Shown here piece by piece: positions 23,747 to 50,346 of a stretch of DNA of 64,000 bases; within the stretch, counting starts at the first letter, position 1; each line of letters opens with the position of its first letter. The translations under genes were made by a program, and so were the position numbers. This stretch comes from Treponema sp. Its GTDB lineage: Bacteria > Spirochaetota > Spirochaetia > Treponematales > Treponemataceae. The notes below the pieces were generated by a model. It saw only the letters and a list, made by a program, of their open reading frames with translations. It was not told the DNA's origin and did not search any database. The stretch is from contig JAEESZ010000002.1 of assembly GCA_016286535.1 (NCBI GenBank), positions 186,001-250,000 on the forward strand. The letters are read 5' to 3'.

Positions 23747-23749
23747 TTA

Positions 23750-27118: not shown

Positions 27119-27125
27119 AAAAAAA

Positions 27126-27193
27126 ACGACAAAGAGGTCGTAGATAATATTTTTGTTTAATGCAAAGGTATTGTCTACGGCCTCTTTTTTTTT
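27126..27193 (+). promoter_or_regulatory. asnB leader: ANTAR-type hexaloop overlapping an intrinsic terminator
   Basis: Stem ACGAC / GTCGT (27126-27130 with 27137-27141) closes the six-base loop AAAGAG, with A at 1 and G at 4. The loop and right arm are also the start of a terminator stem: 27131-27150 pairs with 27168-27187 (GAGGTCGTAGA against TCTACGGCCTC at its core) and runs into nine T. The two folds exclude each other, as expected for an antiterminator/terminator switch. The terminator precedes its own gene, so it is a regulatory leader. Confidence 0.75.
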
Positions 27194-27219: not shown

Positions 27220-28989
27220 ATGTGTGGTTTTGTTGGTTGTTTTGATTTGAATAGTGGCAGTGAACCTGTTGCAGAAGGACTCAAAGAAGAACTTCGCTCA
27301 CAGGTCATTGAAATGAGTAAAAAAATCCGTCACCGCGGTCCAGACTGGTCTGGGGTTTATACAGGCGACAATGCAATTTTAAGCCATGAAAGATTAAGTA
27401 TTGTTGATCCTCTTTCGGGAAAGCAGCCTCTTATAAGTGATGACCAGACAATCATCCTTGCGGCAAACGGAGAAATATATAATCACAAGGAAATACGTGA
27501 AAGTTTTAAGGGAAAATATAATTTCAGAACAGGAAGTGACTGTGAAGTTATTATTCCTTTATATAAAGAATGTCTTCAAAATGGAAAAGATTTTACAGCC
27601 ATGATAGAAAAACTTTCGGGAATCTTTGCTTTTGCCCTTTACGACAGTAAAAATGATACATATCTTATTGCCAGGGACGAAATTGGTGTTATTCCTTTGT
27701 ATCAGGGCTGGGACAAAAACGGTCACTATTATGTTGCAAGTGAATTAAAGGCACTGGAAGGCGAATGCATATCTATAGAAGAGTTCCCAAACGGAAGTTA
27801 TTTGTATGGACACTCCCGTAACGCCCCCGTCAATCCAATCCGCTGGTATAAGAGAGACTGGGAAGATTATGAAAATGTAAAAAATAATGCCCGTGCAACA
27901 GACGATAAGGGAGAAATCATCAATCCTTCTGTTATTGATAAGGTTCGTAACGGACTTGAAAGTGCTGTAAAAGCTCAGCTTATGAGTGATGTTCCTTATG
28001 GTCTTCTTTTAAGCGGCGGACTCGATTCTTCAATTATTGCAGCAATTACTCAGAAATACAGTAAAAAGCGAATTGAATCAGACAGTAAAGAAAGTGCCTG
28101 GTGGCCAAGACTTCATTCCTTTGCAATCGGACTTGAAGGCTCTCCTGATCTTTTAGCGGCAAAAAAAGCTGCAGATTATATCGGAACTGTTCACCACGAA
28201 GTTCATTTTACAATTCAGGAAGCCTTAGATGCCTTACCAGATGTAATTTATCATATAGAAACTTATGACATAACAACAGTAAGGGCTTCGACTCCAATGT
28301 ATCTGCTTGCAAGGGTTATTAAATCTATGGGAATAAAAATGGTATTAAGCGGAGAAGGAAGTGATGAACTTTTTGGCGGTTATCTTTATTTTCATAAGGC
28401 TCCTGATGCAAAAGAATTCCATGAAGAACTTGTTCGAAAAATGAGTAAGCTTCACCTTTATGACTGCCTTCGCGCAAATAAATCCCTTATGGCCTGGGGA
28501 GTAGAAGGACGTGTTCCTTTCCTAGACAAGGATTTTATTGATATTGCAATGAGGCTGAATCCTGCAGATAAAATGAGCATTCGGCTTGAAGACGGAAAGC
28601 AGAGAATGGAGAAATGGATTTTAAGAAAGGCCTTTGAAGACCTGCTTCCGGAATCTATCTGCTGGAGACAAAAGGAACAGTTCAGCGATGGTGTAGGTTA
28701 CAACTGGATTGATACCCTTAAAAAAATCACAGAAGAAAAAGTAAGTGATGCAGAGTTTGCAAGAAGAGAAAAACGCTTCCCTGTAAATCCTCCTAAAACA
28801 AAAGAAGAATATTATTACAGAGAAATTTACAGCCGTCTTTTCCCAAGCGACAGTGCAGCTAAATGTGTACCACATGAAGCCGGAGTTGCCTGTTCTACAG
28901 CAAAAGCACTTGAATGGGATGCTGCATGGAAAAATATGGATGAACCAAGCGGAAGAGCTATTGGAGGTGTACATAATGATGCCTATTAA
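27220..28989 (+). CDS. asnB: Asparagine synthetase, glutamine-hydrolysing
   Basis: Makes asparagine from aspartate, ATP and glutamine. The 589 residues start with MCGFVG, so Cys2 becomes the N-terminal nucleophile of the class II glutaminase domain (about 1-210). The synthetase domain follows with the PP-loop LLSGGLDSS near 265 and SGEGSDELFGGY near 385. The leader carries a terminator with a hexaloop, so expression is probably attenuated by nitrogen supply. The 3' end overlaps pyrG by 14 bases, so pyrG, and likely carA, share the transcript. Confidence 0.95.
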   Translation: MCGFVGCFDLNSGSEPVAEGLKEELRSQVIEMSKKIRHRGPDWSGVYTGDNAILSHERLSIVDPLSGKQPLISDDQTIILAANGEIYNHKEIRESFKGKYNFRTGSDCEVIIPLYKECLQNGKDFTAMIEKLSGIFAFALYDSKNDTYLIARDEIGVIPLYQGWDKNGHYYVASELKALEGECISIEEFPNGSYLYGHSRNAPVNPIRWYKRDWEDYENVKNNARATDDKGEIINPSVIDKVRNGLESAVKAQLMSDVPYGLLLSGGLDSSIIAAITQKYSKKRIESDSKESAWWPRLHSFAIGLEGSPDLLAAKKAADYIGTVHHEVHFTIQEALDALPDVIYHIETYDITTVRASTPMYLLARVIKSMGIKMVLSGEGSDELFGGYLYFHKAPDAKEFHEELVRKMSKLHLYDCLRANKSLMAWGVEGRVPFLDKDFIDIAMRLNPADKMSIRLEDGKQRMEKWILRKAFEDLLPESICWRQKEQFSDGVGYNWIDTLKKITEEKVSDAEFARREKRFPVNPPKTKEEYYYREIYSRLFPSDSAAKCVPHEAGVACSTAKALEWDAAWKNMDEPSGRAIGGVHNDAY

Positions 28990-31717: not shown

Positions 31718-31764
31718 GTCAAAGACGACATTATCCTTTAGGGGATGGTGTCGTCTTTTTTTTT
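31718..31764 (+). promoter_or_regulatory. carB leader: hexaloop overlapping an intrinsic terminator
   Basis: GTC / GAC (31718-31720 with 31727-31729) closes the loop AAAGAC (A1, G4). The same bases form the 5' arm of a 16-base terminator stem (31721-31736 with 31743-31758, two G-T pairs), followed by nine T. The stem closing the hexaloop is only three base pairs, the weakest of the set. The element could alternatively be only the end of carA. Confidence 0.6.
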
Positions 31765-31813: not shown

Positions 31814-31847
31814 ACACTTCTTGGTAAAATCAGGAGCTTATAACACC

Positions 31848-34800
31848 ATGCCTTTAAACAAAGATATTCATAAAGTAATGATTATTGGAAGTGGTCCTAT
31901 TGTAATTGGACAGGCGGCGGAATTTGATTATGCAGGAAACCAGGCCTGCAAAGCCTTAAAAGCATTAGGGCTTGAAGTTTGTCTGGTAAATTCTAACCCT
32001 GCAACCCTTATGACAGACCATGCAATGGCTGATCAGATTTATCTTGAGCCTTTAACCTTAAAAACTCTTGAAAGAATTATAGAAAAAGAAAAACCTGATT
32101 CCCTGCTTTCAACCCTGGGAGGTCAGACAGGACTTACCCTTAGTATGGAACTTGCAAAGTCAGGCTTTCTTGAAAAACACGGCGTAAAGCTTTTGGGTGC
32201 AAGACCTCTTACCATAGATAAGGCCGAAGACCGCCAGATGTTTAAAGATACAATGGAAGAAATAGGGGAGCCCTGCATTCCTTCAAAAGTTGTAACTACT
32301 TATGAAGATGCCCTGGATTTTGCTCAAAATGAAATTGGACTTCCTGCCATAATCAGGCCAGCCTTTACTCTTGGAGGAACCGGAGGTGGTATAGCAAACA
32401 CCTGGAAGGAATTTGATGAAATTGCTCATAATGGACTTCACCGTTCTCCAATTCATCAGATTCTGGTAGAAAAATGTATTTCCGGCTGGAAGGAAATTGA
32501 GTTTGAAGTTATGAGGGACTCTTCCGGTAATGTAATTACCGTTTGTTCTATGGAAAACTTTGATCCTGTTGGAATTCATACCGGAGATTCTATAGTAATT
32601 GCACCTACAGTTACCCTTGCAGATAAAGAATATCAGATGCTGCGCTCTGCAGCCCTGAATATTATTACCACCCTTGAAATTGAAGGAGGCTGTAATTGTC
32701 AGTTTGCCCTTAATCCGGATTCTTTTGAATATGCGGTTATTGAAGTAAATCCTAGAGTTTCACGTTCTTCGGCCCTTGCTTCAAAGGCAACAGGATATCC
32801 TATTGCAAAAGTTGCGGCTTTAATTGCTGTCGGTTTTACACTCGACGAGATTCCAAACTTTGTTACTAAAAAAACAAAGGCAGCTTTTGAACCGGTCCTT
32901 GATTACGTTGTTGTAAAAATGCCTAAGTTCCCTTTTGATAAATTTGTTTATGCCAGCCGTAAACTTGGAACTCAGATGAAGGCTACCGGAGAAGTTATGG
33001 CTATTGGTCAGAATTTTGAAGAAGCAATTTTGAAGGCTGTTCGCGGGGCTGAACTTGGTGTAAAGGATTTGAATCTTCCTTTATTCCAGAAAGAATTTGA
33101 TGAAAAAATAATAGAAAGAGTTTCGCAGCCAACTGATCAGAGAATCTTTGCAATTTACCAGGCATTAAAAAGAAAACTTTTAAGCGTAGAAGAGATTCAC
33201 GAAATTACAAAAATTGATAAATGGTTTTTGTGGAAACTGGAAAATATTATAAAAATAGAAAAGGCTGACGGCTCTCTAATCTATAAGCCTCAATCCTTTA
33301 AAATGGTTGATACCTGTGCCGGTGAGTTTGATGCAGAAACTCCATACTTTTATTCTACCAGTTCAGGCGAAAATGAGGCAGAAAAATTCCTGCTTGAAAG
33401 GCAGGAGAGCCTTGCGGGGGATGCCTCCTCAAAAGGAACTATTGTTGTTCTTGGTTCAGGTCCAATCCGTATTGGGCAGGGAATTGAATTTGATTATTCT
33501 TCTGTTCAGTGTATCTGGGCTCTTAAAAAACTTGGATACCAGGTTGCAATTATAAATAATAATCCGGAAACAGTTTCTACAGATTTTGATATTGCAGACA
33601 GGCTTTATTTTGAGCCTCTTACTCCGGAAGATGTAATGAATGTCCTTGCGGTTGAAAAACCTCTTGGGGTTGTTGTTGCCTTTGGCGGCGGAACTGCCAT
33701 AAAACTTGCAAAGTTTCTGGATGGTAAGGGAGTTCGCATTCTTGGAACATCTGCCGATGCCATTGACCTTGCCGAAGACAGGGAAAGATTTGAGGAGCTT
33801 TGTGACAGGCTTAAGGTAAACAGGCCTAAGGGACTTACGGTATTTACTGAAGTTGAAGCTCTGGAGGCGGCAGCCCGTCTTGGTTACCCGGTTTTAATGA
33901 GGCCAAGTTATGTTCTTGGCGGCCAGAATATGATTATTGCCCGTAACTCTGCTGATATTAAAGAATATATGAAGATTATTCTTGCTCAGAAAATTGAAAA
34001 TCCTATTTTAATTGATAAATACATGGAAGGAACTGAGCTTGAAATTGACTGCATTTGTGATGGTCAGGATGTTTTGATTCCGGGCATTATGGAACATGTT
34101 GAAAGAACAGGTATTCATTCGGGTGACTCTATTGCAGTCTATCCGCCATGGGATTTTACTCCCCAGATGACAGCTGAAGTTGTAGAAAAATCTACTGCTA
34201 TGGCCCTGGCTCTTGGAACAAAGGGACTTGTAAATATTCAGTGGCTTTTTTACAAGGGACAGTTGAATATTATTGAAGCAAATCCACGTTCCAGCCGTAC
34301 TGTTCCATATCTTTCTAAGGTAACCGGTATTCCAATGGTTGAACTTGCCACAAGAGCCATGCTTGGAGAAAGAGTAAGGGATATGGGCTATGGAACAGGG
34401 CTTTTTCCTGCAAGAAATTACTTTGCTGTAAAGGTTCCTGTATTCAGTTTTGAAAAGCTGATGAATGTAGATACTCATCTTGGTCCTGAAATGAAAAGTA
34501 CCGGTGAGGTACTTGGAATTGCAGATAGCCGGGAAGAAGCCGTCTTTAAGGGAATGGTTGCTGCCGGCTGGAAGATGGAACACGAAAAAGGAATTTTATT
34601 CAGTGTAAGGGAATCGGATTTACCTGAACTACCTGAGCTTGCAAAAAAATTTTATGATATGGGCTTTACCCTTTATGCAACTTCTGGAAATGCTGCAACC
34701 ATTGAAAGAAGTGGAATGAAAGTAACTCACATTGCAAAAGTCCATGAAAATTATAATGACAATGTAATGACTTTACTGGAAAGTGGAAAAGTTATTTATG

Positions 34801-34997
34801 TAGTTTCTACTTCTGCAAAAGGCAGGGATCCGGTAGCAGAAAGCGTAAAATTAAGAAGACTTGCGGTAGAAAAAGATATTGACTGTCTTACCTCAATAGA
34901 CACTGCCAATGCTCTGGCAGACTGTTTAAGGGGAAAATTTACTCTTGAAAATGTCAGTCTTGTAGATATTAATAAACTTCAGCTTTCTAAGGTGTAA
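31848..34997 (+). CDS. carB: Carbamoyl-phosphate synthase, large subunit
   Basis: ATP-dependent synthesis of carbamoyl phosphate from bicarbonate and ammonia. The 1049 residues contain the two homologous ATP-grasp halves (GSGPIVIGQAAEFDYAG and GSGPIRIGQGIEFDYSS mark their beginnings) and a C-terminal MGS-like allosteric domain (about 930-1049). A TTG at 31821 is in frame, but the ATG at 31848 gives the standard N terminus MPLNKDIHKV; AGGAG lies eleven bases upstream. Its separation from carA by a terminator leader means the two subunits could be expressed unequally unless read-through or antitermination occurs. Confidence 0.95.
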   Translation: MPLNKDIHKVMIIGSGPIVIGQAAEFDYAGNQACKALKALGLEVCLVNSNPATLMTDHAMADQIYLEPLTLKTLERIIEKEKPDSLLSTLGGQTGLTLSMELAKSGFLEKHGVKLLGARPLTIDKAEDRQMFKDTMEEIGEPCIPSKVVTTYEDALDFAQNEIGLPAIIRPAFTLGGTGGGIANTWKEFDEIAHNGLHRSPIHQILVEKCISGWKEIEFEVMRDSSGNVITVCSMENFDPVGIHTGDSIVIAPTVTLADKEYQMLRSAALNIITTLEIEGGCNCQFALNPDSFEYAVIEVNPRVSRSSALASKATGYPIAKVAALIAVGFTLDEIPNFVTKKTKAAFEPVLDYVVVKMPKFPFDKFVYASRKLGTQMKATGEVMAIGQNFEEAILKAVRGAELGVKDLNLPLFQKEFDEKIIERVSQPTDQRIFAIYQALKRKLLSVEEIHEITKIDKWFLWKLENIIKIEKADGSLIYKPQSFKMVDTCAGEFDAETPYFYSTSSGENEAEKFLLERQESLAGDASSKGTIVVLGSGPIRIGQGIEFDYSSVQCIWALKKLGYQVAIINNNPETVSTDFDIADRLYFEPLTPEDVMNVLAVEKPLGVVVAFGGGTAIKLAKFLDGKGVRILGTSADAIDLAEDRERFEELCDRLKVNRPKGLTVFTEVEALEAAARLGYPVLMRPSYVLGGQNMIIARNSADIKEYMKIILAQKIENPILIDKYMEGTELEIDCICDGQDVLIPGIMEHVERTGIHSGDSIAVYPPWDFTPQMTAEVVEKSTAMALALGTKGLVNIQWLFYKGQLNIIEANPRSSRTVPYLSKVTGIPMVELATRAMLGERVRDMGYGTGLFPARNYFAVKVPVFSFEKLMNVDTHLGPEMKSTGEVLGIADSREEAVFKGMVAAGWKMEHEKGILFSVRESDLPELPELAKKFYDMGFTLYATSGNAATIERSGMKVTHIAKVHENYNDNVMTLLESGKVIYVVSTSAKGRDPVAESVKLRRLAVEKDIDCLTSIDTANALADCLRGKFTLENVSLVDINKLQLSKV

Positions 34998-34999
34998 AG

Positions 35000-35740
35000 A
35001 TGGAAATTGGTAAGAAAAAATCAAATATAGAAAATCTTCTTAAAAAACTTAAAGGTACCAGAGAAGAAGAAATTCTTTGCCAGACTGAAGAATTATATGA
35101 TGAAATTAAAGAAAATCAGTCTGTATGGTATGAAAAATCTTCTTTTACCTGTCCTTCTGCCTGCGGTCAGTGCTGCAAAAACTTTGAACCTGATTTACTC
35201 GATTGTGAAGCAGATTATATGGCTGCCTGGCTTTTAGAAAAGAGGCCGGAGATTGCAGATGAAGTTTCTAAAGGAAATTTTCCTTTTGCGAAAAATAAGG
35301 GCTGTCCTTTCTGGGACGAAAACAATGACTATCACTGTACAATTTATGAGGGCAGGGCCTTTATCTGCAGATTTTTTGGAGCTTACGGCTCAAGGTCTAA
35401 AACGGGGGAAAATGTTTTTAAGCCATGTAAATTTTATCCTTCAGAAAAACTTGCAGAACATAATCCACCTTTAAGTCACAGACAGTATAGTCAAAAAGAA
35501 ATGCAGGAAATATTTGGAGTACTTCCACCTCTTTCTACAGATATTATGGAGAAGGCCCTTGTTCTGAATCCTGATAACACAAAAACAAATATGCTAAGGG
35601 ATATTCTTCCTAAAGCTGTAAACAGATTAAAATGGTTATTGTATATGGCTGGGGCAGAAGAAAAGTCTGAGAACGAGACTGGGGCAGAGGCAACTGACGA
35701 TACCGGGGCAGGGGCCGTCTGCCTGGTTGAAGAGATATGA
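35000..35740 (+). CDS. YkgJ-family cysteine-cluster protein
   Basis: Protein of 246 residues with the zinc- or iron-sulfur-binding cysteine cluster of the YkgJ/UPF0153 family: CPSACGQCCKNF near 50, then GCPFW, CTIYEGRAFICRFFGAYG and PCKFYP. It starts two bases after carB, so it is cotranscribed. The last 30 residues are Glu/Gly/Ala-rich and probably disordered. The function of the family is not established; some members are oxidoreductase-like or metal-handling. The end of the gene holds the glnA promoter. Confidence 0.75.
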   Translation: MEIGKKKSNIENLLKKLKGTREEEILCQTEELYDEIKENQSVWYEKSSFTCPSACGQCCKNFEPDLLDCEADYMAAWLLEKRPEIADEVSKGNFPFAKNKGCPFWDENNDYHCTIYEGRAFICRFFGAYGSRSKTGENVFKPCKFYPSEKLAEHNPPLSHRQYSQKEMQEIFGVLPPLSTDIMEKALVLNPDNTKTNMLRDILPKAVNRLKWLLYMAGAEEKSENETGAEATDDTGAGAVCLVEEI

Positions 35741-35782: not shown

Positions 35783-36925
35783 ATGTATACACAAAGTGAT
35801 GTTTTGGATTATGTAAATGAGGAAGATGTAAAATTTGTACGCCTTGCTTTTTTTGATATGAATGGAGTGCAGAAAAATATTTCTATTATGGCAAGTCAGC
35901 TGGAAAGAGCTTTTTCGGACGGTATTAGTTTTGATGCCTCTGCAATTTATGGCTTTGAAAAAGCTGAAAAATCTGATTTGTTTTTATTTCCTGAAGCATC
36001 AACAATTTCTGTTCTTCCCTGGAGACCAAATACAGGAAAGGTTGTACGTATGTTCTGTACAATAAAACATTCAGATGGTCGTATATATAAAAAAGACTGC
36101 AGAAGTCTCTTAAAAAATGCAATTAAAAAAGCAAAAGAAGAATATGGAATTGAGTTTAATATTGGGACTGAAATTGAATTCTATCTTTTTAAGCTTGATG
36201 AAAAAGGGGAAGCAACTAAAATTCCTTTTGATGAAGCCGGTTATATGGATATTGCTCCGGAAGATAAAGGTGAAAATATAAGAAGGGAAATCTGTTTTAC
36301 TCTTGAACAGATGGGAATTCAGCCTGAAGCAAGTCATCACGAAGAAGGACCTGGTCAAAACGAAATTGATTTCCATTATTCTGATGCCCTTACCGCGGCC
36401 GACAACGCCTCCACCTTCAAGTGGATTGTTCGTACGCGCGCGGCAAACTCCGGTCTTTACGCCGACTTTTCTCCAAGGCCACTTCCTTCAAAACCTGGAA
36501 GCGGTTTACATATAAATATTTCTTCTTCCGACAGTACAAAGAACAAAAACATTATGGCAGGAATTCTTAGTCATGCTGCAGAAATGACTTATTATATGAA
36601 TCCTACAGAGAATTCCTACGTAAGACTTGGACTTGATAAGGCTCCAAAAAATATTTTCTGGGGAAATGAAAACCGTCTTGCGCTTATAAGGGTTCCGGCC
36701 ATTACAAACAGTGATTCAAAAAGACTTGAAGTTCGTTCTGCCGACTGCGAGTGCAATATTTACATTGTTCTGACTCTCTTAATAAATGCGGCACTGGACG
36801 GAATTAAAAATAATCTTCTTCCACCCGAAGAAGGAAACAATACTCTGTCGCTGCCTGACAGCCTGGAAGAGGCAAAAAGTATTGCCCAAAACAGTGATTT
36901 TATAAAAAACTCTCTGGATTTTTAA
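35783..36925 (+). CDS. glnA: Short glutamine synthetase-family protein (type I-like)
   Basis: GS-fold protein of 380 residues, against 440-470 in typical type I enzymes. Metal and substrate residues are present by eye: GTEIEF (Glu130, Glu132), EEGPGQNEIDF, GSGLHINIS (His243), Arg281 in NSYVRLG, IRVPA (Arg303) and RLEVRSAD (Glu316, Arg318). The glutamate flap that reads YEAP in standard enzymes reads DKAP here (Lys286). The sequence stops after the EEAKSIAQNSDF helix, so the C-terminal 60 or so residues that lock the dodecamer are missing, and there is no adenylylation-loop Tyr. It sits directly before the ANTAR gene. It may be a weak enzyme, act on another amine, or serve as a nitrogen sensor; the classical role is likely taken by glnN. 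Confidence 0.75.
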   Translation: MYTQSDVLDYVNEEDVKFVRLAFFDMNGVQKNISIMASQLERAFSDGISFDASAIYGFEKAEKSDLFLFPEASTISVLPWRPNTGKVVRMFCTIKHSDGRIYKKDCRSLLKNAIKKAKEEYGIEFNIGTEIEFYLFKLDEKGEATKIPFDEAGYMDIAPEDKGENIRREICFTLEQMGIQPEASHHEEGPGQNEIDFHYSDALTAADNASTFKWIVRTRAANSGLYADFSPRPLPSKPGSGLHINISSSDSTKNKNIMAGILSHAAEMTYYMNPTENSYVRLGLDKAPKNIFWGNENRLALIRVPAITNSDSKRLEVRSADCECNIYIVLTLLINAALDGIKNNLLPPEEGNNTLSLPDSLEEAKSIAQNSDFIKNSLDF

Positions 36926-36955: not shown

Positions 36956-37522
36956 ATGACGGCAGATTCGCACAGCGTTCTGGTAATAACAAAAGATATT
37001 AAAATATCCTCTCTGATTCAGGCTATGCTGACTCCACCTCTATTTGAATGTCAGATTGTAAATGATTTTAATGAAGCAAGAAGACTTACTTCTGAGCGTT
37101 TATATAATATCATTCTGATTGATTATGCAGATGGAGAAGGGGTCGATTTTGCAAGAGATATTTCTGAAAACCTGAGTACAATTTTACTTTTGACACCCCA
37201 GCACTTATACGAAGAAGTAAGCTACAGGGTTGAAGGTTACGGAATTATTACTATAAGTACACCTTTTGATCAGTTTTATTTTTATACTTCAATAAAAACT
37301 GCTATTGCCGTTCAGTATAAAGTTCAGATTCTTTCAAGCCAGACTACAAAATTAAAGGTCAAAATGGAAGAAATCAGACTGATGAACAGGGCAAAAATGC
37401 TTTTGATGCAGAATCTTAGAATGACAGAAGAGCAGGCCCACCGTTACATAGAAAAAGAATCTATGAACAGGGGTATGAAAAAGACTGCTCTTTCTGAAGA
37501 AATAATCAGAACTTACGCATAA
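36956..37522 (+). CDS. ANTAR-domain RNA-binding antiterminator with pseudo-receiver
   Basis: Regulator of 188 residues. The C terminus (about 130-185) is an ANTAR three-helix domain: a coiled-coil lead-in, then RAKMLLMQNLRMTEEQAHRYI and a following helix, matching the family pattern of Ala-Lys, Leu-Met and Glu-x-x-Ala. The N-terminal domain (about 5-120) has a receiver fold. Asp56 stands at the phosphoacceptor position (ILIDYADG), but the acidic pair is replaced (VLVITKD) and the conserved Lys before Pro is Thr102 (ISTPF), so phosphorylation is doubtful. ANTAR proteins bind hexaloop RNA stems and block terminator formation. It follows glnA by 30 bases. Clostridia have a comparable glnA-nitR arrangement. 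It is the obvious candidate regulator of the five terminator leaders around it. Confidence 0.88.
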   Translation: MTADSHSVLVITKDIKISSLIQAMLTPPLFECQIVNDFNEARRLTSERLYNIILIDYADGEGVDFARDISENLSTILLLTPQHLYEEVSYRVEGYGIITISTPFDQFYFYTSIKTAIAVQYKVQILSSQTTKLKVKMEEIRLMNRAKMLLMQNLRMTEEQAHRYIEKESMNRGMKKTALSEEIIRTYA

Positions 37523-40588: not shown

Positions 40589-43500
40589 CTAAGCTGTACA
40601 TTTTCTAAAAGCTTCAAGAATTGCTTCGTCGCCTTTTAGACCTGCTTTTTCTTCCTTATCAATTTCTCTGACAATCTTTAAATAATCATTTGGAATGATT
40701 TTCTTAAATGATTTTTTATAATTATCCCAGTCAGAAAGGATTTCTTTTGCCCTTTCACTGCCGCTTTCCTTATAGTGTTCTTCAATTAAGGAGTGGAGAT
40801 TCTCTTCGTCAGGAGAAAGGTCTTTATCTGAAGATTTCCAGTTTAAAAGGCTTGTAGTTTTATCATTGAGTTCATACATGGTAACAAGTTCATGATTTAA
40901 TCTTTTGTAAAGGTCATGATTTTTGTCATAAACATAGGCAATTCCGCCGCTCATACCTGCACAAAGATTTTTTCCTGTATTTCCAAGAATAACGGCTGTT
41001 CCGCCTGTCATATATTCAAGGCCATGATCTCCACAACCTTCCGTAACGACAGTCGCCCCGGAATTTCTTACGCAGAATCGTTCGCCGCAAACTCCGTTGA
41101 TAAAGGCTTTTCCGCTGGTTGCACCAAAAAGGGCAACGTTTCCGGCAATTATGTTGGCTTCTGCCTTTCCCTGGAAATTTTTATTTTTCTTAATAACTAA
41201 TTTTCCACCGCTTAAGCCTTTTCCAAAAGCATCATTTGCTTCTCCTGTAAGGCGCAGGGTAAGTCCCTTTGGAATAAAGGCACCAAAACTTTGTCCTGCT
41301 CCGCCTTCAAAATCAATACAGAAAGCATCTTCAGTTAAAGAGTTTCCATATTCTTTTTGAATCTGGCTTCCCAAAATTGTTCCGCAGCTTCGATCGGTTG
41401 ACTGGATTTTTATAAGAGGGAACTTTTTATCTTTTAATAAAGGAAGCAGACTTTTTACATCGACTGTATTTTCAAGCTTAAAGTCGAATAAAGAACGTTC
41501 TTTTTTCCAGTCCTGTCTCTGCGAGTTTGTAAAGAGAATCCTGCTCATATCTGCAAGGCCTGCTCTCTTAAAGCCCTGTTTTTCTTTAGTTTTAAGTAAA
41601 TCACTTCTTCCGCAAAGCTCTTCTACGCTTCTGATTCCAAGCTTTGCCATTATTTCCCTCATTTCCTGAGCAATAAACTTCATAAAGTTTTCGACATATT
41701 CAGGTTTTCCAGGGAATCTTGAGCGCAGTTTTTCGTTCTGGGTTGCAACACCAAATGGACAGGTATCCAACTGGCAGACTCTCATCATAGAACAGCCCAT
41801 AGCAATTAAAGGTGCTGTAGCAAAACCAAACTCTTCGGCACCAAGTAAAGCAGCAATTACAACATCACGGCCACTCATAAGCTTACCGTCTGTTTCAATT
41901 ACAACCCGGCCACGAAGTCCGTTTTGAATTAAAGTCTGGTGGCTTTCTGCAAGTCCAAGTTCCCATGGAAGACCTGCATGATGAATTGAAGAAATTGGGG
42001 CAGCTCCGGTTCCGCCGTCATGTCCTGAAATTAAAATTACCTGGGCACCTGCTTTTGCGACACCTGCGGCAATTGTTCCAACTCCAGCCTCGCTTACAAG
42101 TTTTACAGAAATGCGGGCCTGGCGGTTGGCATTTTTTAAGTCATAAATGAGCTGGGCAAGATCTTCAATTGAATAAATATCATGGTGTGGTGGTGGCGAA
42201 ATTAAGGCTACGCCTGGAGTTGCATAACGTGTTTTTGCAATCCAAGGATAAACTTTCTTTCCTGGTAAATGACCACCTTCCCCGGGTTTAGCTCCCTGGG
42301 CCATCTTAATCTGTATTTCCCTGGCGCTTAACAGGTATTCTTCTGTAACACCAAAACGTCCGGAAGCAACCTGTTTAATTGCAGAGTTATATTCAGTTCC
42401 AAGTCTTTCAGGCTTTTCACCGCCTTCTCCTGAGTTTGATTTTCCGTGTAAGTGATTCATTGCGGCTGCCATACATTTATGAGCTTCTTCGCTGATTGAA
42501 CCATAAGACATAGCTCCGGTTTTAAATCTCTTAACAATTTCCTCAACGCTTTCAACCTGGTCCAGAGGAATGCCGCCGTCTGAAGCAAAATTAAAATCCA
42601 GCATGGCACGAAGGGTGTGAGGCTCTTCATTTGAATCAACAAGGGCAGTGTATTCCTTAAAGCGCTGGTAGTCTCCATTACGGGTTGCCTGCTGCAGGGC
42701 AATAATAGTTTCAGGATTGTAAAGGTGACTTTCAGCCTGAGGTCCACGACGGAATTTATGCTTGCCGACTGAATCAAGATGAGTGTTTACTGTAAGACCA
42801 TCAGGATCAAAGCCCTGGGCATGATGATAAAGAATATCTTCTTCAATTTCTTTTAAGCCAATTCCACCAACTCTACTGACAGTATTTGTAAAGTATTTTT
42901 CAATTACATCTTCTGCAATTCCAAGAGCTTCAAAAATCTGGGCAGACTGATAAGACTGAATTGTAGAGATTCCCATTTTTGCAGCAATCTTTACAATTCC
43001 ATTTATAATTCCCTTATTGTAGTCATCAATGGCTGTATGATAATCCTTATCAAGGATTTTCTGGTCAATAAGTTCTGCAATTGCTTCGTGGGCTAAATAA
43101 GGATTTACGGCTCTTGCTCCATAGCCAAGACACATTGCTGCCTGATGAACATCCCTTACTTCGGCACTTTCAAGAATAACAGAAATAGAGGTACGTTTTT
43201 TAGTTCTGATAAGATATTGTTCCACCGCACTTACAGCAAGAATTGCAGGAATTGCGGCACGATTTTCATCAAGGCCACGGTCACTTAAAATGATGATGTT
43301 ATAACCTTCTGAATATGAACTTTCAATCTGCTTAAAAAGATTTTCAAGTGCGGCTTCAAGATATTTTCCATCTTTTTTGCAGTCTTTTATATCAAAGAGA
43401 ATTGAAAGCCTTTTTGCTTTTAAGCCGGGCTGATTAAGGGCTGCTATTTTTATTAAATCTGTCCCGGTAAGAATAGGATTATTTATTTCAAGTACACGAC

Positions 43501-45148
43501 AGTTGGAAGGCTGGGCATCAAGAATATTTCCGTCTTTTCCTACATAAACGGTTGTATCTGTAACTATTTTTTCTCTTAGACTGTCAATTGGAGGATTTGT
43601 TACCTGGGCAAAAAGCTGCTTAAAATAACTGAAGAGCGAAGGGTGTTTTTCGCTCATAAAGGCAAGCGGGGTATCAACTCCCATACTTGCTGTAGGTTCA
43701 ACTCCGTTTCTTGCAAGAGGAAGAATCATCTCGTTTACATCTTCATAATTCCAGCCAAAAGCCCTATAAAGAATATTTCTTTCTTCCTGACTGCTTACAG
43801 GAATTTTTTTATTAGGGATTTTTAATTCTGAAAGATGAATAAGATTCATATCCAGCCACTCTCCATAAGGATAAAGTTCTGAATATTCTTTTTTACATTC
43901 TTCATCACTAATGATTTTTTTCTTTAATGTATCTACAAGAAGAATTTTTCCAGGCTGCAAACGGGATTTTATTTCTATATTTTCTTCCGGTATATCAAGT
44001 ACTCCAACTTCACTTGAAAGAATAAGCATTCCATCTTTAGTAACGTAGTAACGGCTTGGTCTTAAGCCGTTGCGGTCTAAGGTTGCTCCAAGAAGATCCC
44101 CGTCACTGAACAAAATAGCTGCAGGACCGTCCCAGCTTTCCATCATGGTTGCCCAGTAATGATAAAAATCCTTTTTTGAAGAAGTCATATTTTCATCATG
44201 TTTCCAAGGTTCCGGAATACAGGTCATAACAGCAAGTGGAAGAGGAAGTCCGTTCATTACAAGGAATTCCAGAGTGTTATCAAGCATGGCAGAGTCACTT
44301 CCGCTTACATCAACTGCAGGAAGGATTTTTTCTATTTCGCTCTTTGAAAAAACTTTTGACTTTAATGTTTCTTCACGGGCAAGCATTCGGTCTACATTAC
44401 CCCTGATTGTATTAATTTCTCCGTTGTGGGCTATAAAGCGGTTAGGGTGGGCTCTCTGCCAGCTTGGCTGTGTATTTGTAGAAAAGCGTGAATGAACGAT
44501 TGCAAGAGATGATTTATATTCACTGTCCTGTAAATCACTATAGAAAGTTCTAAGTTCATGAACAAGGAACATTCCTTTATAAACTATTGTTCTGCTGCTT
44601 AAAGAACATACATAGGTTAATGAGTTTTCTTTTTCGAATTCTCTTCTTAAAAGATAAAGTTTACGGTCAAATTCAAGCCCTTTTTTACAGTTTGAATCTT
44701 TTTTAATAAAAGCCTGCCATATTTGAGGCATGCAGTCCCTGGCTTTTTTACCAAGAACTTTTTCATTTACTGGAACTTTTCTCCATCCAGAAAAGTTCAG
44801 TTTTTCACTTTTACATAATTTTTCAAAACGTTTTTTTTCGCTTTCGCATTTTTCTATATCAGAAGGAAAGAAAAATTGTCCGATTCCGTATTCTCTTTCT
44901 CCGGCCTGGCCAAGCAGATCTGCAGCATTTTTTGTAAAAAAATCGTGACTTATCTGAAGCAGAATACCAACTCCATCACCAGTTTCTCCACTTGCATCTT
45001 TTCCGGCCCTGTGTTCCAGTTTTTCAACTATACTAAGTGCATTATCTACTATTTTGTGCGATTTACTGCCGTCAATATTTACAACTGCACCAATACCACA
45101 GTTGTCGTGTTCAAATTCTGGCTGATAAAGTGTCTTATATTTCTGCAT
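40589..45148 (-). CDS. gltB: Glutamate synthase, large subunit
   Basis: Converts glutamine and 2-oxoglutarate into two glutamates. The chain has 1519 residues: an N-terminal class II glutaminase whose nucleophile Cys17 (HDNCGIG) is exposed after removal of a 16-residue propeptide, a central domain, the FMN-binding synthase domain (SGEGGEKPER, GAKPGEGGHLPG, then GHDGGTGAAP), and a C-terminal beta-helix with GGXXG repeats. The frame extends to 45211, but only the ATG at 45148 has GGAG at the right distance, and the longer version would run through the leader terminator. It heads the gltB-gltD-purF operon. Confidence 0.96.
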   Translation of the reverse strand: MQKYKTLYQPEFEHDNCGIGAVVNIDGSKSHKIVDNALSIVEKLEHRAGKDASGETGDGVGILLQISHDFFTKNAADLLGQAGEREYGIGQFFFPSDIEKCESEKKRFEKLCKSEKLNFSGWRKVPVNEKVLGKKARDCMPQIWQAFIKKDSNCKKGLEFDRKLYLLRREFEKENSLTYVCSLSSRTIVYKGMFLVHELRTFYSDLQDSEYKSSLAIVHSRFSTNTQPSWQRAHPNRFIAHNGEINTIRGNVDRMLAREETLKSKVFSKSEIEKILPAVDVSGSDSAMLDNTLEFLVMNGLPLPLAVMTCIPEPWKHDENMTSSKKDFYHYWATMMESWDGPAAILFSDGDLLGATLDRNGLRPSRYYVTKDGMLILSSEVGVLDIPEENIEIKSRLQPGKILLVDTLKKKIISDEECKKEYSELYPYGEWLDMNLIHLSELKIPNKKIPVSSQEERNILYRAFGWNYEDVNEMILPLARNGVEPTASMGVDTPLAFMSEKHPSLFSYFKQLFAQVTNPPIDSLREKIVTDTTVYVGKDGNILDAQPSNCRVLEINNPILTGTDLIKIAALNQPGLKAKRLSILFDIKDCKKDGKYLEAALENLFKQIESSYSEGYNIIILSDRGLDENRAAIPAILAVSAVEQYLIRTKKRTSISVILESAEVRDVHQAAMCLGYGARAVNPYLAHEAIAELIDQKILDKDYHTAIDDYNKGIINGIVKIAAKMGISTIQSYQSAQIFEALGIAEDVIEKYFTNTVSRVGGIGLKEIEEDILYHHAQGFDPDGLTVNTHLDSVGKHKFRRGPQAESHLYNPETIIALQQATRNGDYQRFKEYTALVDSNEEPHTLRAMLDFNFASDGGIPLDQVESVEEIVKRFKTGAMSYGSISEEAHKCMAAAMNHLHGKSNSGEGGEKPERLGTEYNSAIKQVASGRFGVTEEYLLSAREIQIKMAQGAKPGEGGHLPGKKVYPWIAKTRYATPGVALISPPPHHDIYSIEDLAQLIYDLKNANRQARISVKLVSEAGVGTIAAGVAKAGAQVILISGHDGGTGAAPISSIHHAGLPWELGLAESHQTLIQNGLRGRVVIETDGKLMSGRDVVIAALLGAEEFGFATAPLIAMGCSMMRVCQLDTCPFGVATQNEKLRSRFPGKPEYVENFMKFIAQEMREIMAKLGIRSVEELCGRSDLLKTKEKQGFKRAGLADMSRILFTNSQRQDWKKERSLFDFKLENTVDVKSLLPLLKDKKFPLIKIQSTDRSCGTILGSQIQKEYGNSLTEDAFCIDFEGGAGQSFGAFIPKGLTLRLTGEANDAFGKGLSGGKLVIKKNKNFQGKAEANIIAGNVALFGATSGKAFINGVCGERFCVRNSGATVVTEGCGDHGLEYMTGGTAVILGNTGKNLCAGMSGGIAYVYDKNHDLYKRLNHELVTMYELNDKTTSLLNWKSSDKDLSPDEENLHSLIEEHYKESGSERAKEILSDWDNYKKSFKKIIPNDYLKIVREIDKEEKAGLKGDEAILEAFRKCTA

Positions 45149-45164: not shown

Positions 45165-45216
45165 AAAAAAAAAGCTGCACGCACAGAAAAATACTGTACA
45201 TGCAGCGTCATTGCCG
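45165..45216 (-). promoter_or_regulatory. gltB leader: hexaloop overlapping an intrinsic terminator
   Basis: In the minus direction CGGC / GCTG (45216-45213 with 45206-45203) closes the loop AATGAC (A1, G4). The right arm starts a 13-pair terminator stem, 45206-45194 with 45186-45174 (two G-T pairs), with a seven-base loop and nine T (45173-45165). The terminator lies just upstream of the gltB ribosome site. A second AAAGAC hexaloop immediately upstream (45221-45216) has only two possible stem pairs. Confidence 0.75.
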
Positions 45217-45241
45217 TCTTTGAGTTTTGTAAATTTACTAA

Positions 45242-45350: not shown

Positions 45351-45364
45351 GAGAATCAAGAAAA

Positions 45365-45408
45365 GACAATGGGGTCGCAGATATGATATTTCTGCGGCCT
45401 TTTTTTTT
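45365..45408 (+). promoter_or_regulatory. glnN leader, first element: hexaloop overlapping an intrinsic terminator
   Basis: GAC / GTC (45365-45367 with 45374-45376) closes the loop AATGGG (A1, G4). Its right side is the 5' arm of the terminator GGTCGCAGA / TCTGCGGCC (45373-45381 with 45391-45399), followed by nine T. The terminator core is nearly the same as that of asnB (GGTCGYAGA with TCTRCGGCC), which argues for a shared element and not chance. Confidence 0.75.
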
Positions 45409-45410
45409 GC

Positions 45411-45470
45411 AAAGGCGCTATAGTTTCTTCAGAGAATATTATCTGAAAGAAGTCTGCAGCGCCTTTTTAT
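45411..45470 (+). terminator. glnN leader, second terminator-like hairpin
   Basis: Outer stem AAAGGCGCT / AGCGCCTTT (45411-45419 with 45458-45466), inner stem TTCAGA / TCTGAA around an AT-rich loop, followed by TTTTTAT. It lies between the first leader terminator and the ribosome site of glnN, giving two terminators in series before the same gene. Confidence 0.7.
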
Positions 45471-45495
45471 TTTTAACATAAAAAGGAGATTTCAT

Positions 45496-47589
45496 ATGGA
45501 CGAAGTAACATCTATTTTTGGCGAAAATGTTTTTAATGAAACAGTCATGAAAGCAAGACTTCCAAAAGAAACTTTTAAACAGTTAATGAAAACTGTAGAA
45601 GGTGGAGAAAAGCTTGATCCTGCAGTAGCAACCGTAGTTGCAAATGCCATGAAGGACTGGGCTGTTGAAAAGGGTGCAACTCATTTTACCCACTGGTTCC
45701 AGCCACTTACCGGTATTACTGCCGAAAAGCATGACTCATTTATTCAGCCTATAGATGGCGGAAAAGTAATAATGGAATTCAGCGGTAAGGAACTTGTTCA
45801 GGGAGAACCAGACGCATCTTCTTTCCCAAGCGGAGGAATCCGTGCAACTTTCGAAGCCCGTGGTTATACAGCCTGGGATCCAACAAGCTATGCCTTTATT
45901 AAAGACGGAACTTTATGTATTCCAACTGCTTTCTGTTCTTATACAGGAGAAGCACTTGATAAAAAAACACCTTTGCTTCGTTCCATGCAGGCAATTTCAA
46001 AACAGGCCGTACGTGTGCTTAAACTTTTTGAAGGAAACGAAAATGTTACAAGCGTAAAGACAACTGTAGGACCTGAACAGGAATATTTCCTTATTGATAA
46101 ATCTGTTTATGATCAGCGCGAAGATTTGATTTACACCGGAAGAACTCTTTTTGGTGCAAAAGCTCCAAAAGGTCAGGAACTGGAAGATCATTACTTTGGA
46201 ATGATTAAACCTCGCGTTCAGGCCTTTATGAAAGATTTAAACAAAGAATTATGGAAGCTTGGAATTCTTGCAAAAACAGAACACAACGAAGTTGCTCCTG
46301 CCCAGCACGAATTAGCTCCAATCTTTTCTACAACAAATATTGCCTGTGATCATAACCAGCTCACAATGGAATTAATGAAGAAAATCGCTTCAAAACACGG
46401 AATGGTTTGTCTTTTACATGAAAAACCATTTGCCGGTGTAAACGGAAGCGGAAAGCATAACAACTGGTCTATAAGCACTAATACAGGAAAAAATCTTCTT
46501 GACCCGGGTGCTACTCCAGATCAGAATGCACAGTTCCTTATTTTCCTTTGTGCAGTAATTAAAGCCGTAGATGAGCATCAGGATTTACTCCGTATATCTG
46601 TTGGAACTGCAGGAAATGACCACAGACTTGGAGCCAACGAGGCACCTCCAGCAATTATTTCTATGTTCCTTGGAGATGAATTAAGTGCAATTCTTGACTG
46701 TCTTGAAGAAGGAAAGCCATACGGTAACCATGCAAAAGAAAAAATGCAGATTGGTGTTACAGTTCTTCCTGACTTCAACAAGGATACAACAGACCGAAAC
46801 AGAACATCACCTTTCGCCTTTACAGGAAATAAGTTTGAGTTCCGTTCTCTTGGTTCAAGTGATTCTATTGCCTGTGCAAACATTATGCTCAATACAGTTG
46901 TTGCAGATGCTTTGTGTGACTTTGCTGACCAGCTGGAAAAGAGCAAAGATTTCCAGAAGGATCTTCATGAATTAATTTTGAAAACAATTCGCGAACACAA
47001 ACGAATTATTTTCAACGGAAACGGTTATGATGAATCATGGGTAAAAGAAGCAGAAAAACGCGGACTTTTGAACCTTAAGACTACACCGGAAGCCTTAAAG
47101 TATTTCCCATCTGCTGCTAACAGAGCCCTCTTTAAAAAACACGGAGTATTCAGCGATTCTGAAGTTTCAAGCCGATTCGAAATTCAGAATGAAAATTATG
47201 CAAAGATTATCAACATAGAAGCTCTTACAATGATTGATATGACCCGTAAGCTTTACCTGCCAGTTTCAAGCGCATATTCAAAAGAACTTGCAGATACTAT
47301 CAATGCAAAAGCTTCATGCGGCATCACAGACCAGGGCTTTGAAGGAGAACAGCTTAAAATAGTAAGCGTTCTTACAGGCTCAATTTACAAAAAGCTTTGT
47401 GAGCTTGAAAAAACTGTTTGTGATTCAAAGAATGTAGAAGAAGCATCTGAGCTTGCCATGTACTATAAAGATAAGGTAATTCCTGCCATGAATGAGCTTC
47501 GTGCAAACGTTGATGAAATGGAAGGTCTTGTACCTGAAAGTAAGTGGCCGGTTCCAGGCTACGGCAAGATGCTTTTTAGCGTAAAGTAA
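45496..47589 (+). CDS. glnN: Glutamine synthetase type III
   Basis: ATP-dependent synthesis of glutamine from glutamate and ammonia. The 697 residues are the length of GSIII, far longer than types I and II. Family marks are [15 protein letters not shown] near 115, [28 protein letters not shown] and [21 protein letters not shown] precedes the ATG. Expression is probably limited by two tandem terminators in the leader. The ammonium channel gene follows 156 bases later behind its own terminator leader. This is most likely the main ammonia-assimilating enzyme here. Confidence 0.95.
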
Positions 47590-47631: not shown

Positions 47632-47699
47632 TTGGCAATGAAGTCAATTTTTGTGTTAGTGCACAATGCAAATTCTGATTTCATTGCCATTTTTTTTTT
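47632..47699 (+). promoter_or_regulatory. amtB leader: hexaloop overlapping an intrinsic terminator
   Basis: TTGGC / GTCAA (47632-47636 with 47643-47647) closes the loop AATGAA (A1, G4). The loop and stem overlap the 5' arm of a 13-pair terminator, 47634-47646 with 47676-47688, followed by ten T. Inside the large terminator loop is a further small hairpin TTGTG / CACAA with loop TTAGTG. A TATATT at 47622-47627 could be a -10, but no good -35 is seen, so RNA may come from glnN read-through. Confidence 0.75.
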
Positions 47700-47745: not shown

Positions 47746-49419
47746 ATGAGTGAAGTTTGGAGCGTCTGGTTCCTTATTGGTGCAGCCCTTGTATTCTTTA
47801 TGCAATGCGGTTTTGCAATGGTTGAAACAGGTTTTACGAGAGCAAAAAACGCTGGAAATATTATCATGAAAAATCTTATGGATTTTTGTATTGGTACTCC
47901 TATGTTTATGCTTCTTGGTTTTGGCTTAATGATGAGCGAAAACTATTTCTTTGGTCTTATCGGTAAACCTGATATGCAGCTTTTTACAAACTTTGCAGAA
48001 AATGACTGGTCAAGTTTTGTATTCAACCTTGTTTTCTGCGCTACTGCCGCAACAATCGTTTCCGGTTCTATGGCAGAACGTACAAAGTTCTCTGCTTACT
48101 GTATTTATTCAGCTGTAATTTCTGCAGTTGTTTATCCTATAGAAGCAGGCTGGGTATGGAACTCTCAGGGCTGGCTGGTTGGTCTTGGTTTCGTAGACTT
48201 TGCCGGTGGTGCCGCAATTCATTCGGTTGGTGGAACAGCCGCTTTAATTGGTGCTATCTTCCTTGGTCCACGTATTGGAAAGTATGATCGCGACGCAAAC
48301 GGAAAGGTAACAAAAGTGCACGCCATTCCAGGTCATTCTCTGACTCTTGGTGCACTTGGAACCTTTATCCTCTGGTTCGGATGGTATGGTTTCAACGGTG
48401 CCGCATGTACACAGCTTCTTGGAGTAGGCGGACTTGCAGCAGTTTTCACTACAACTACAATAGCTCCTGCCGTAGCTGCAGTTACAACAATGATCTTTAC
48501 CTGGATTAAAAACAAGAAGCCTGATGTTTCTATGACTCTTAACGCTTCTCTTGCAGGTCTTGTTGCAATTACACCTACCTGTGCAACAGTTGATGCTTTA
48601 GGTGCAACTATTATTGGTATTGTAGCTGGAATTATCGTTGTTCTGGTTGTTGAACTTCTTGATCTTAAGCTGCATATTGATGACCCTGTTGGTGCTGTTG
48701 CCGTTCACCTTGCAAACGGTATCTGGGGAACTTTAAGTGACGGTTTATTCAATGTTGAAAGCGGAGTTTTCTACGGCGGTGGATTCAGTCATCTTGGAGT
48801 TCAGTGTCTTGGTGAGTTTACAATCGTTGCCTGGACTACAGTTTGTATGATTATCACCTTCAGCCTTATAAAGAAGTTCCACGGACTTCGTGCAAGCCGC
48901 GAAGAAGAAATTATCGGTCTTGATAAGCTTGAACATGGAATTGATTCAAGTTATGCAGGCTTTATTATGGCTCCACAGGTTCTTGGCGGAGAAAGTTCGG
49001 CAGCAGCAGGCGAAAGCGTACCTGTAGAAAAGGCTATACCAGTTGCAAAGGCTACAGCCCGCCCTGATGCTAAGTTCCATATGGTTACAATCATTACCCG
49101 TCAGAGTAAGTTTGATGAACTTAAGGCAGCCATGAACGACATTAATGTAACAGGTATGACTGTTACAAACGTACTTGGTTGCGGTCAGCAGCACGGAAAT
49201 GTTCAGAAGTACCGCGGTGTAGAAATGGATATGACTTTACTTCCAAAAATCAAGGTTGATATTGTTGTAAGTGAAGTTCCTGTAGATCTTGTTATAACTG
49301 CTGCTAAGGAAGTTCTTTATACCGGAAATATCGGAGATGGAAAAATCTTCGTATATGACGTAAGCAATGTTGTAAAGGTTCGTACCGGCGAAGAAGGATA
49401 TGAAGCTTTACAGGACTAA
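47746..49419 (+). CDS. amtB: Ammonium transporter fused to a C-terminal PII domain
   Basis: Ammonium channel of 557 residues with about eleven membrane helices (to about 390). The twin pore histidines are in GHSLTLGALGTF and AVHLANGIWG. After a cytoplasmic tail and an Ala/Val-rich linker (about 395-442), residues 443-557 form a complete PII (GlnB/GlnK) domain: KFHMVTIITR, GMTVTNVLGCG, the T-loop with KYRGVEMDM, and TGNIGDGKIFVYDV. The uridylylation Tyr51 of GlnB is Met here. The channel and its PII blocker are therefore one polypeptide. The frame is open back to 47632, but that stretch is the terminator leader; the ATG at 47746 has AGGAGG five bases upstream. Confidence 0.93.
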   Translation: MSEVWSVWFLIGAALVFFMQCGFAMVETGFTRAKNAGNIIMKNLMDFCIGTPMFMLLGFGLMMSENYFFGLIGKPDMQLFTNFAENDWSSFVFNLVFCATAATIVSGSMAERTKFSAYCIYSAVISAVVYPIEAGWVWNSQGWLVGLGFVDFAGGAAIHSVGGTAALIGAIFLGPRIGKYDRDANGKVTKVHAIPGHSLTLGALGTFILWFGWYGFNGAACTQLLGVGGLAAVFTTTTIAPAVAAVTTMIFTWIKNKKPDVSMTLNASLAGLVAITPTCATVDALGATIIGIVAGIIVVLVVELLDLKLHIDDPVGAVAVHLANGIWGTLSDGLFNVESGVFYGGGFSHLGVQCLGEFTIVAWTTVCMIITFSLIKKFHGLRASREEEIIGLDKLEHGIDSSYAGFIMAPQVLGGESSAAAGESVPVEKAIPVAKATARPDAKFHMVTIITRQSKFDELKAAMNDINVTGMTVTNVLGCGQQHGNVQKYRGVEMDMTLLPKIKVDIVVSEVPVDLVITAAKEVLYTGNIGDGKIFVYDVSNVVKVRTGEEGYEALQD

Positions 49420-49500: not shown

Positions 49501-50331
49501 TTAGTATTCAGGTGGAAGTTCACCTAACTGGTCAAAACTGAATACTGGACCGTCTTTACAAACGAATTTATCACCAATATTACAGCGGCCGCATTTACCA
49601 ATACCGCACTTCATTCTCATTTCCATAGTTGTGAAAATCTGTTCATCTTTAAAGCCAAGATCTTTTAAGATTTTCAAAGACATGTGAATAAGAATTGGAG
49701 GTCCACACATGATTACTGTCATTCCGGCATCTGGTTTAAGTTCTGTGATGAATGGTGGAACGAAACCAACGTGTCCATCCCAGCCTTCTTCTGCACGGTC
49801 GATTGTGATATCGATAGAGCAGTTTGGCTGTTTCATCCATACATTCTGCATTTCATCAAGGCGAACTAAGTCTGCCTTTGAACGTGCACCATAGATTACC
49901 TGAATTTTTCCATAGTTTTCACGATGGTCCATCATATAGTTTACTACCGAATGAACTGGAGCAATACCAATACCACCGGCAATAACAAGAATGTCTTTAC
50001 CTTTAAGGGCACCTTCTACAGGGAATCCGTTTCCAACTGGACCGCGCAGACAAATCTGCTGGCCAACTTCTGCGTTGTGCAGCCATTCAGTTACACAACC
50101 GCATTTTTTAATTGAGAATTCCATGTGAGATTCCAGAGTAGGGGAAGAAGTGATGGAAATCATTGATTCACCAACACCAGGAACAATAAGCATTGCACAC
50201 TGTCCAGGAATGTGGTTAAAGAGTTTTTTTCCATCAAGTCCAACTACGCTGAAAGTTTTTACATCAGGAGTTTCCTGTTTAATATCAATAATTTTTCCTA
50301 CATAAGGAATGAATGATTCTTTTGTTTCCAT
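49501..50331 (-). CDS. flxA: FAD/NAD-binding subunit FlxA of the Flx-Hdr complex
   Basis: Flavoprotein of 276 residues in the ferredoxin-NADP reductase superfamily, like dihydroorotate dehydrogenase PyrK and hydrogenase gamma subunits. The FAD domain has LRGPVGNGFP, the NAD domain has VIAGGIGIAPVHSVV and MCGPPILIHM, and a C-terminal [2Fe-2S] site is CGIGKCGRC with a later Cys. In Flx-Hdr complexes this is the NADH entry point. A TTG at 50337 is in frame, but AAGGAG is placed for the ATG at 50331. It is the last gene of the operon. Confidence 0.85.
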   Translation of the reverse strand: METKESFIPYVGKIIDIKQETPDVKTFSVVGLDGKKLFNHIPGQCAMLIVPGVGESMISITSSPTLESHMEFSIKKCGCVTEWLHNAEVGQQICLRGPVGNGFPVEGALKGKDILVIAGGIGIAPVHSVVNYMMDHRENYGKIQVIYGARSKADLVRLDEMQNVWMKQPNCSIDITIDRAEEGWDGHVGFVPPFITELKPDAGMTVIMCGPPILIHMSLKILKDLGFKDEQIFTTMEMRMKCGIGKCGRCNIGDKFVCKDGPVFSFDQLGELPPEY

Positions 50332-50346
50332 GCTCAACTCCTTATC

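Follow-up and report, generated by a model that had tools for sequence, protein, structure and literature searches.

The gene studied here encodes a NitR-type ANTAR protein that would act as a phosphorylation-independent antiterminator of nitrogen assimilation, with single-hexaloop leader RNAs as targets and the neighboring GlnA as its likeliest sensor. We put the probability of this reading at about 0.78. The gene lies in a 64-kb stretch of Treponema sp. DNA, which was analyzed as a whole and is referred to as the window. Comparative genomics provided good support for a predicted nitrogen regulon of this protein. Furthermore, genome comparison showed leader modules with two predicted competing folds that were nearly restricted to genomes carrying an ANTAR protein. 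RNA binding and antitermination are inferred, as are contact with GlnA and activation when nitrogen is limiting. The features of the window are listed in Table 1.

Table 1. Positions of the regulator, the predicted leader modules, and the associated genes in the window
Feature	Position	Strand	Description
asnB-leader module	27125..27193	+	ACGAC-AAAGAG-GTCGT, loop at 27131; covariance model E 8e-11
asnB	27220..28989	+	predicted target gene; Pfam Asn_synthase
carA/carB intergenic module	31718..31764	+	GTC-AAAGAC-GAC; scanner, covariance model silent
carB	31821..34997	+	predicted target gene
ykgJ-like gene (CxxCxxCC protein)	35000-35740	+	between carB and glnA
glnA	35783..36925	+	short (380 aa) type-I glutamine synthetase-like; Pfam
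ANTAR regulator, NitR-type	36956..37522	+	188 aa; Pfam PF03861, AlphaFold2 model
gltB	40589..45148	-	predicted target gene; gltD, purF follow
gltB-leader module	45165..45218	-	CGGC-AATGAC-GCTG; covariance model E 9.7e-6
First glnN-leader module	45362..45410	+	GAC-AATGGG-GTC; covariance model E 2.7e-6
Second glnN-leader module	45409..45472	+	loop AAAGGC, 2-bp stem; scanner
glnN, type-III glutamine synthetase	45496..47589	+	predicted target gene; Pfam GSIII_N
amt-PII-leader module	47632..47695	+	TTGGC-AATGAA-GTCAA; scanner, covariance model silent
amt fused to PII	47746..49419	+	predicted target gene; Pfam Ammonium_transp + P-II

The ANTAR protein consists of a degenerate receiver (residues ~1-120), a long helix (106-154), and an ANTAR domain (132-184). 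Pfam PF03861 matched residues 132-184 with an E-value of 2.5e-14 and 53.2 bits, above the curated cut-off of 27.3, and the N-terminal part gave a weak sequence match to receiver domains in a profile search. EutV, Rv1626, AmiR, and NasR were among the matches of a phmmer search against solved structures. AlphaFold2 predicted a receiver fold followed by the long helix and the ANTAR helices (106-154, 158-172, and 176-187; mean pLDDT 92.8). When the full-length model was submitted to Foldseek, the best structural matches were EutV, Rv1626, and AmiR, with EutV at the top. The RNA-contact residues of EutV include K149, E160, and M172 (PMC8934654). These correspond to K147, E158, and M170 of the window protein, all invariant in the homologues aligned, and the equivalents of EutV K143 and K147 are basic. 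The equivalents of EutV R142 and Tyr164 are not identical; Tyr164, which stacks on G4, is replaced by His or Gln in spirochaete ANTAR proteins, and this counts against the proposed reading. A search of the same genome found this ANTAR protein alone. As in NitR-type regulators, receiver-like and ANTAR domains are combined in a protein encoded directly beside glnA, and by this predicted architecture and gene order the protein belongs to the NitR group.

A scanner for hexaloop hairpins overlapping an intrinsic terminator detected six modules in the window, all in leaders of nitrogen genes or of genes that use glutamine (asnB, carB, glnN with two, amt-PII, and gltB), whereas dinucleotide-shuffled windows gave 0-3 (mean 0.8). 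Reading of the intergenic regions revealed terminators in the asnB, glnN, amt-PII, and gltB leaders, with the 5′ arm beginning in or beside the A1..G4 hexaloop hairpin. The modules thus carry the hallmark of ANTAR-type targets, an A1/G4 hexaloop hairpin whose formation would exclude an intrinsic terminator. Three of them have strong sigma70-like promoters upstream. The asnB module lies directly 3′ of TTGACA-N17-TAAGAT, its hairpin beginning ~7 nt and its loop 12 nt past the -10 box, and the first glnN module lies 3′ of TTGACA-N17-TATAAA. For asnB, the computed energies strongly favor the terminator form over the hairpin (-36 vs -5.7 kcal/mol), suggesting that the off state is the likely default. 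The second glnN module, with its 2-bp stem in the window, has 3-5 bp in many relatives.

On the strand of the ANTAR gene, the order is carA, carB, the ykgJ-like gene, glnA, and the ANTAR gene, while gltB-gltD-purF lies on the opposite strand. The carB module is likely to govern carB-ykgJ-glnA-ANTAR as well, and the gltB module likely governs gltB-gltD-purF. We placed the gltB start at the ATG at 45148 rather than at the 45211 of the ORF caller, as 45211 falls inside the leader terminator. The amt start is probably 47746, not 47632. Beside this nitrogen cluster, positions 49501-56124 (minus strand) hold iron-sulfur/flavin oxidoreductase genes resembling heterodisulfide-reductase-type electron transfer.

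Across the genus, the scanner found at least one module in the leaders of glnN (25/26), amt (22/28), asnB (24/29), and gltB (24/30). Further module-bearing genes in relatives, matched by BLAST, were gltD, carA, and pyrG, and there the glnA-ANTAR operon itself also bore modules; purF is a putative addition, on the strength of model hits that lie beside it. The ANTAR gene is probably in its own predicted regulon, through the carB leader here and the glnA leader in relatives. Nearly all module-bearing genes serve the production or consumption of glutamine or ammonia. The tie to nitrogen metabolism that the first-pass annotation had implied was strong, as the modules sit before nitrogen-assimilation genes; the annotation did not mention these RNA targets, although they lie in the window.

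The alternative between terminator and hairpin rests on sequence anatomy and covariation. When 61 modules were aligned, 13 pairs made up the terminator, and 11 of these showed compensatory changes. For the competing hairpin, compensatory changes occurred in 4 of the 5 pairs of the same alignment, a count that is partly circular because the modules had been picked for hairpin pairing. For this reason, the test was repeated with terminators picked blind to the hairpin. Of 139 leader terminators picked in this way, 102 carried an AAWG loop with a closing stem of 3 bp or more; among 27 terminators in 200 kb of DNA drawn at random from the genus, none did (Fisher p ~1e-13).

We then compared module counts with the presence of ANTAR proteins, which fall into a subfamily close to the window protein and a second, distant spirochaete subfamily (~33% identity). 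The covariance model used for counting, R1, was tuned to close relatives and was silent on three window modules, those of carB and amt and the second one of glnN. Because these three were missed, R1 counts are lower bounds. Among genus genomes at least 90% complete, the mean number of R1 modules, read in this way, was 6.25 in those with the close subfamily and 1.25 in those with the distant one, against 0.43 in those lacking ANTAR. The scarcity of R1 hits in distant-subfamily genomes, 5 of 16 of which had none, counts against the proposed reading, although the looser scanner found modules in some of these genomes. Among genomes mostly outside model building, modules were detected in 9 of 11 ANTAR-positive and in 0 of 10 ANTAR-negative genomes, and in a phylum-wide sample every module-positive genome (7/7) had an ANTAR protein. 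No module was found in the glnN leaders of four nearly complete ANTAR-less species. All seven ANTAR-positive genomes examined for type-I glnA had the gene, and 12 of 13 ANTAR-less ones lacked it. This co-presence and co-absence indicates that the ANTAR protein, type-I GlnA, and the RNA modules behave as one unit.

A sample of 296 spirochaete genomes contained 37 with ANTAR proteins. We rejected the idea that these proteins are confined to one spirochaete genus, as they occurred in 13 of 138 sampled genera. Three species (G001, G028, and G064; loci L213, L214, and L215) carry both subfamilies. In two of them a glnA of its own accompanies the distant copy, pointing to a duplication or transfer event and to two circuits that work separately.

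The pairing with glnA that the first-pass annotation had noted proved to be real and conserved. The end of glnA and the start of the ANTAR gene are 30 nt apart in the window, and the two genes were adjacent in 30/30 close loci and in 74 of 80 named loci, which are mostly from Treponema MAGs and Clostridia. A glnA gene also lies upstream of the distant-subfamily ANTAR genes, L214 being the sole locus without a glnA match, and the adjacency extends to most other spirochaete families sampled.

The paired GlnA scored 325.8 bits against TIGR00653, under the cut-off of 429, and its counterparts in close relatives are 380-403 aa long (n=30). When mapped on B. subtilis glutamine synthetase, the metal ligands and the glutamate-binding Arg (R298) were kept. 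The flap Glu (E304) was replaced by Lys in the window GlnA and in 45/45 close relatives, and Ser56 by Ala in the window GlnA and in 43/45. We take B. subtilis E304 and Ser56 to be the equivalents of Salmonella Glu327 (flap Glu) and Ser53 (ammonium site). Both Ser53 and Glu327 are ammonium-site residues (PMC8998196). GlnA thus departs from the catalytic residue set of type-I glutamine synthetases at the flap Glu and the ammonium-site Ser. Among other paired GlnA proteins, 17 of the 33 from spirochaetes and 8 of the 53 from Clostridia kept the flap Glu; as its loss is not universal, a catalytically altered GlnA is not required for the pairing. Paired GlnA proteins with the flap Glu had median lengths of 422-438 aa, and those without it 389-403 aa. 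Type-III GlnN was present in 87 of 89 genus genomes, indicating that GlnA need not be the chief enzyme. The genome that contains the window has a second type-III glutamine synthetase gene (G000:C14:182011).

The altered active site makes a contact between GlnA and the ANTAR protein more plausible, judging from these residues. In its most specific form, the proposal would be that a glutamine synthetase whose synthetic activity has been lost serves as a glutamine sensor, binding its ligands and holding or releasing the ANTAR protein, which would then switch on the single-hexaloop regulon; we regard this form as tentative. It is also quite conceivable, although we do not favor it, that the ANTAR protein and the single hexaloops act as proposed while GlnA is an ordinary or amine-specific ligase and the signal comes from PII or from glutamine/2-oxoglutarate. 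The retained metal and glutamate ligands would suit a ligase, and changes at the ammonium site also occur in the gamma-glutamylpolyamine synthetases of Streptomyces (PMC8998196). An amine-specific ligase is a serious alternative for the role of GlnA. A PII signal would fit the Amt-PII fusion encoded in the same cluster. However, glnA lies directly upstream of the ANTAR gene nearly everywhere and is absent together with it, whereas amt is rarely adjacent.

Characterized ANTAR targets have two hairpins, P1 and P2, which are separated by a linker of 5-12 nt and are both needed in vivo (PMC3369931). In the EutV-RNA structure, a dimer engages no more than one hexaloop at once, and the minimal binding motif is a single hexaloop, although two hexaloops are still held to be necessary for antitermination (PMC8934654). 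A strict dual-hexaloop scan of the window returned nothing, and a single-hexaloop scan was therefore made. The modules that it detected carry one hexaloop rather than two adjacent ones joined by a 5-12 nt linker, which speaks against the proposed mechanism. In view of the P1-P2 arrangement of the characterized RNAs, they might be truly dual, with the other hairpin missed because it is short or non-canonical, and the glnN, gltB, and some amt leaders do contain two complete hexaloop-terminator modules in tandem; in many glnN and gltB leaders such tandem modules could act jointly. We consider this unlikely. The asnB leader has no room for P1, as its hairpin starts so close to the -10 box. Furthermore, adjacent hexaloop-hairpin pairs were rare (12 in 2.3 Mb of strand sequence vs 4 after shuffling), and no extra upstream hexaloop was found beside the modules of the 80 named loci. 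Single-hexaloop modules were also observed in several clostridial leaders near glnA-ANTAR pairs, indicating that the variant is not limited to spirochaetes.

We next considered how the receiver might be switched. The first-pass annotation had placed Asp56 at the phosphoacceptor position, noted that the acidic pair and the conserved Lys are missing and that no kinase gene is adjacent, and doubted a histidine kinase input. Asp56 was confirmed in the ORF, and T12-K13 (followed by D14) occupies the place of the acidic pair after strand 1. In the alignment of receiver residues that had been proposed, D56 was invariant in 16 close orthologues and the acidic pair was present in 0/16. The loss of the Lys held only in part. 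The window protein has T102, and the 16 orthologues have T, S, N, W, K, and others at this position, so that Lys is present in some; it is mostly present in the distant subfamily. Among the residues of phosphorylated response regulators (acidic pair, Asp, Thr/Ser, and Lys), the Asp alone was consistent in close relatives. Beyond these it is not conserved, with D56 changed to N in two distant-subfamily spirochaete proteins and Asp56 mostly replaced by Asn or another residue in clostridial relatives. Because the receiver is degenerate family-wide, including these replacements, phosphorylation is unlikely as a general switch, and the degeneracy, as read from the alignments, is a family trait.

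These data bear on whether the protein belongs to an ordinary two-component system, in which an unlinked histidine kinase phosphorylates Asp56 and causes EutV-like dimerization. The invariance of Asp56 in close orthologues would agree with this, as would the fact that EutV, the top structural match, is phosphorylated (PMC8934654). However, the acidic pair was absent in every homologue examined, and the neighborhood contains no kinase gene; the nearest kinase seen, 12 kb away, is in a sensor-kinase/LytTR pair with its own regulator (23027-24484, minus strand), near two ABC transporter genes. The doubt about a histidine kinase was thus borne out, and we consider such a system improbable. It is similarly hard to credit that a riboswitch, a different RNA-binding protein, or the movement of ribosomes controls the leader terminators, with an indirect ANTAR association as some ANTAR-positive genomes without model hits might suggest, because no Rfam family matched the window in a scan, the loop has the ANTAR A1/G4 signature, and ANTAR-less species lack modules even in their glnN leaders.

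In the mechanism we favor, the ANTAR protein would bind one hexaloop hairpin per leader RNA. Part of this hairpin, in most cases its loop and 3′ arm, also belongs to the 5′ arm of the intrinsic terminator; an unbound leader would fold into the terminator, and transcription would stop. Holding the bound hairpin would block the terminator and allow RNA polymerase to read through, by analogy with EutV. The receiver-like domain would be switched by contact with a sensor rather than by phosphorylation, as in AmiC-AmiR and NasS-NasT. The short GlnA, with its glutamate and metal ligands kept and its ammonium site altered, is the likeliest candidate for this sensor, and a shortage of glutamine may lead it to release the ANTAR protein or to activate it.

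Several parts of this system have counterparts elsewhere. NitR of C. acetobutylicum and C. saccharobutylicum, in work on NitR-glnA cited in PMC4676874, is described as an antiterminator that regulates ammonia assimilation; together with the gene order shared by clostridial homologues, this agrees with the earlier remark that the glnA-nitR pairing is known from clostridia. The Treponema protein is likewise a receiver-like and ANTAR protein encoded beside glnA. It differs in its spirochaete host, its much wider predicted regulon, its defined single-hexaloop targets, and its paired GlnA, which is mostly short with an altered active site. With EutV of Enterococcus it shares the fold, the A1/G4 hexaloops, the predicted competition between hairpin and terminator, and most RNA-contact residues. 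However, EutV requires phosphorylation by EutW and a pair of hexaloops with a spacing of 5-12 nt (PMC3369931, PMC8934654), whereas in the Treponema system each terminator has a single hexaloop and the receiver is degenerate. In NasS-NasT and AmiC-AmiR, a partner protein that binds a ligand controls the receiver-like ANTAR protein through contact (PMC3795266; structure 1qo0). AmiC and NasS are small-molecule-binding proteins, NasS resembling a nitrate-binding protein, whereas the candidate partner in Treponema derives from a glutamine synthetase. By this analogy, ligand-sensing partner of a pseudo-receiver ANTAR protein would be a reasonable role for GlnA. Ramesh and co-workers predicted nitrogen ANTAR regulons in Desulfotomaculum and Pelobacter (PMC3369931), which are similar in having many nitrogen operons per genome under ANTAR-type leader elements. 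A dual-hairpin model was used there, and it would be expected to miss single-hexaloop modules.

To our knowledge, nitrogen sensing in spirochaetes of this group is largely undescribed. The first-pass annotation knew of no spirochaete description, and we likewise found no paper joining ‘ANTAR domain’ and ‘Treponema’ in a literature of incomplete coverage, which makes this weak evidence of novelty. Nitrogen control by ANTAR antitermination apparently had not been described in spirochaetes. In the same incompletely covered literature, ‘single hexaloop’ appeared with ANTAR in the EutV structure paper alone. The predicted regulon would place multiple nitrogen operons under one regulator in a genus of animal gut bacteria. 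Single hexaloops at the extreme 5′ ends of transcripts put the two-hexaloop requirement to the test and suggest how regulons of this kind would have escaped dual-hexaloop searches. The system would also allow a test of whether a metabolic enzyme has become the sensor of an RNA-binding regulator. If GlnA has this role, pseudo-receiver ANTAR proteins would have a further type of sensor in addition to AmiC and NasS, and the dual hexaloop would be dispensable.

Modules were also present before dapF-like genes (L190, L192, L194, L197, and L201) and before a nadE-like gene in L197; these look like targets that would widen the predicted regulon past classical ammonia assimilation. Another module (G000:C17:16225-16290; locus L188, ~1526-1591, plus strand) has a promoter-like TTGACC...TATAAT immediately upstream and lies between two opposite-strand genes, and no clear gene follows it on its own strand. 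Such a module may yield a short RNA that acts as a decoy for the ANTAR protein, a role proposed for EutX, or may simply terminate the gene on the opposite strand.
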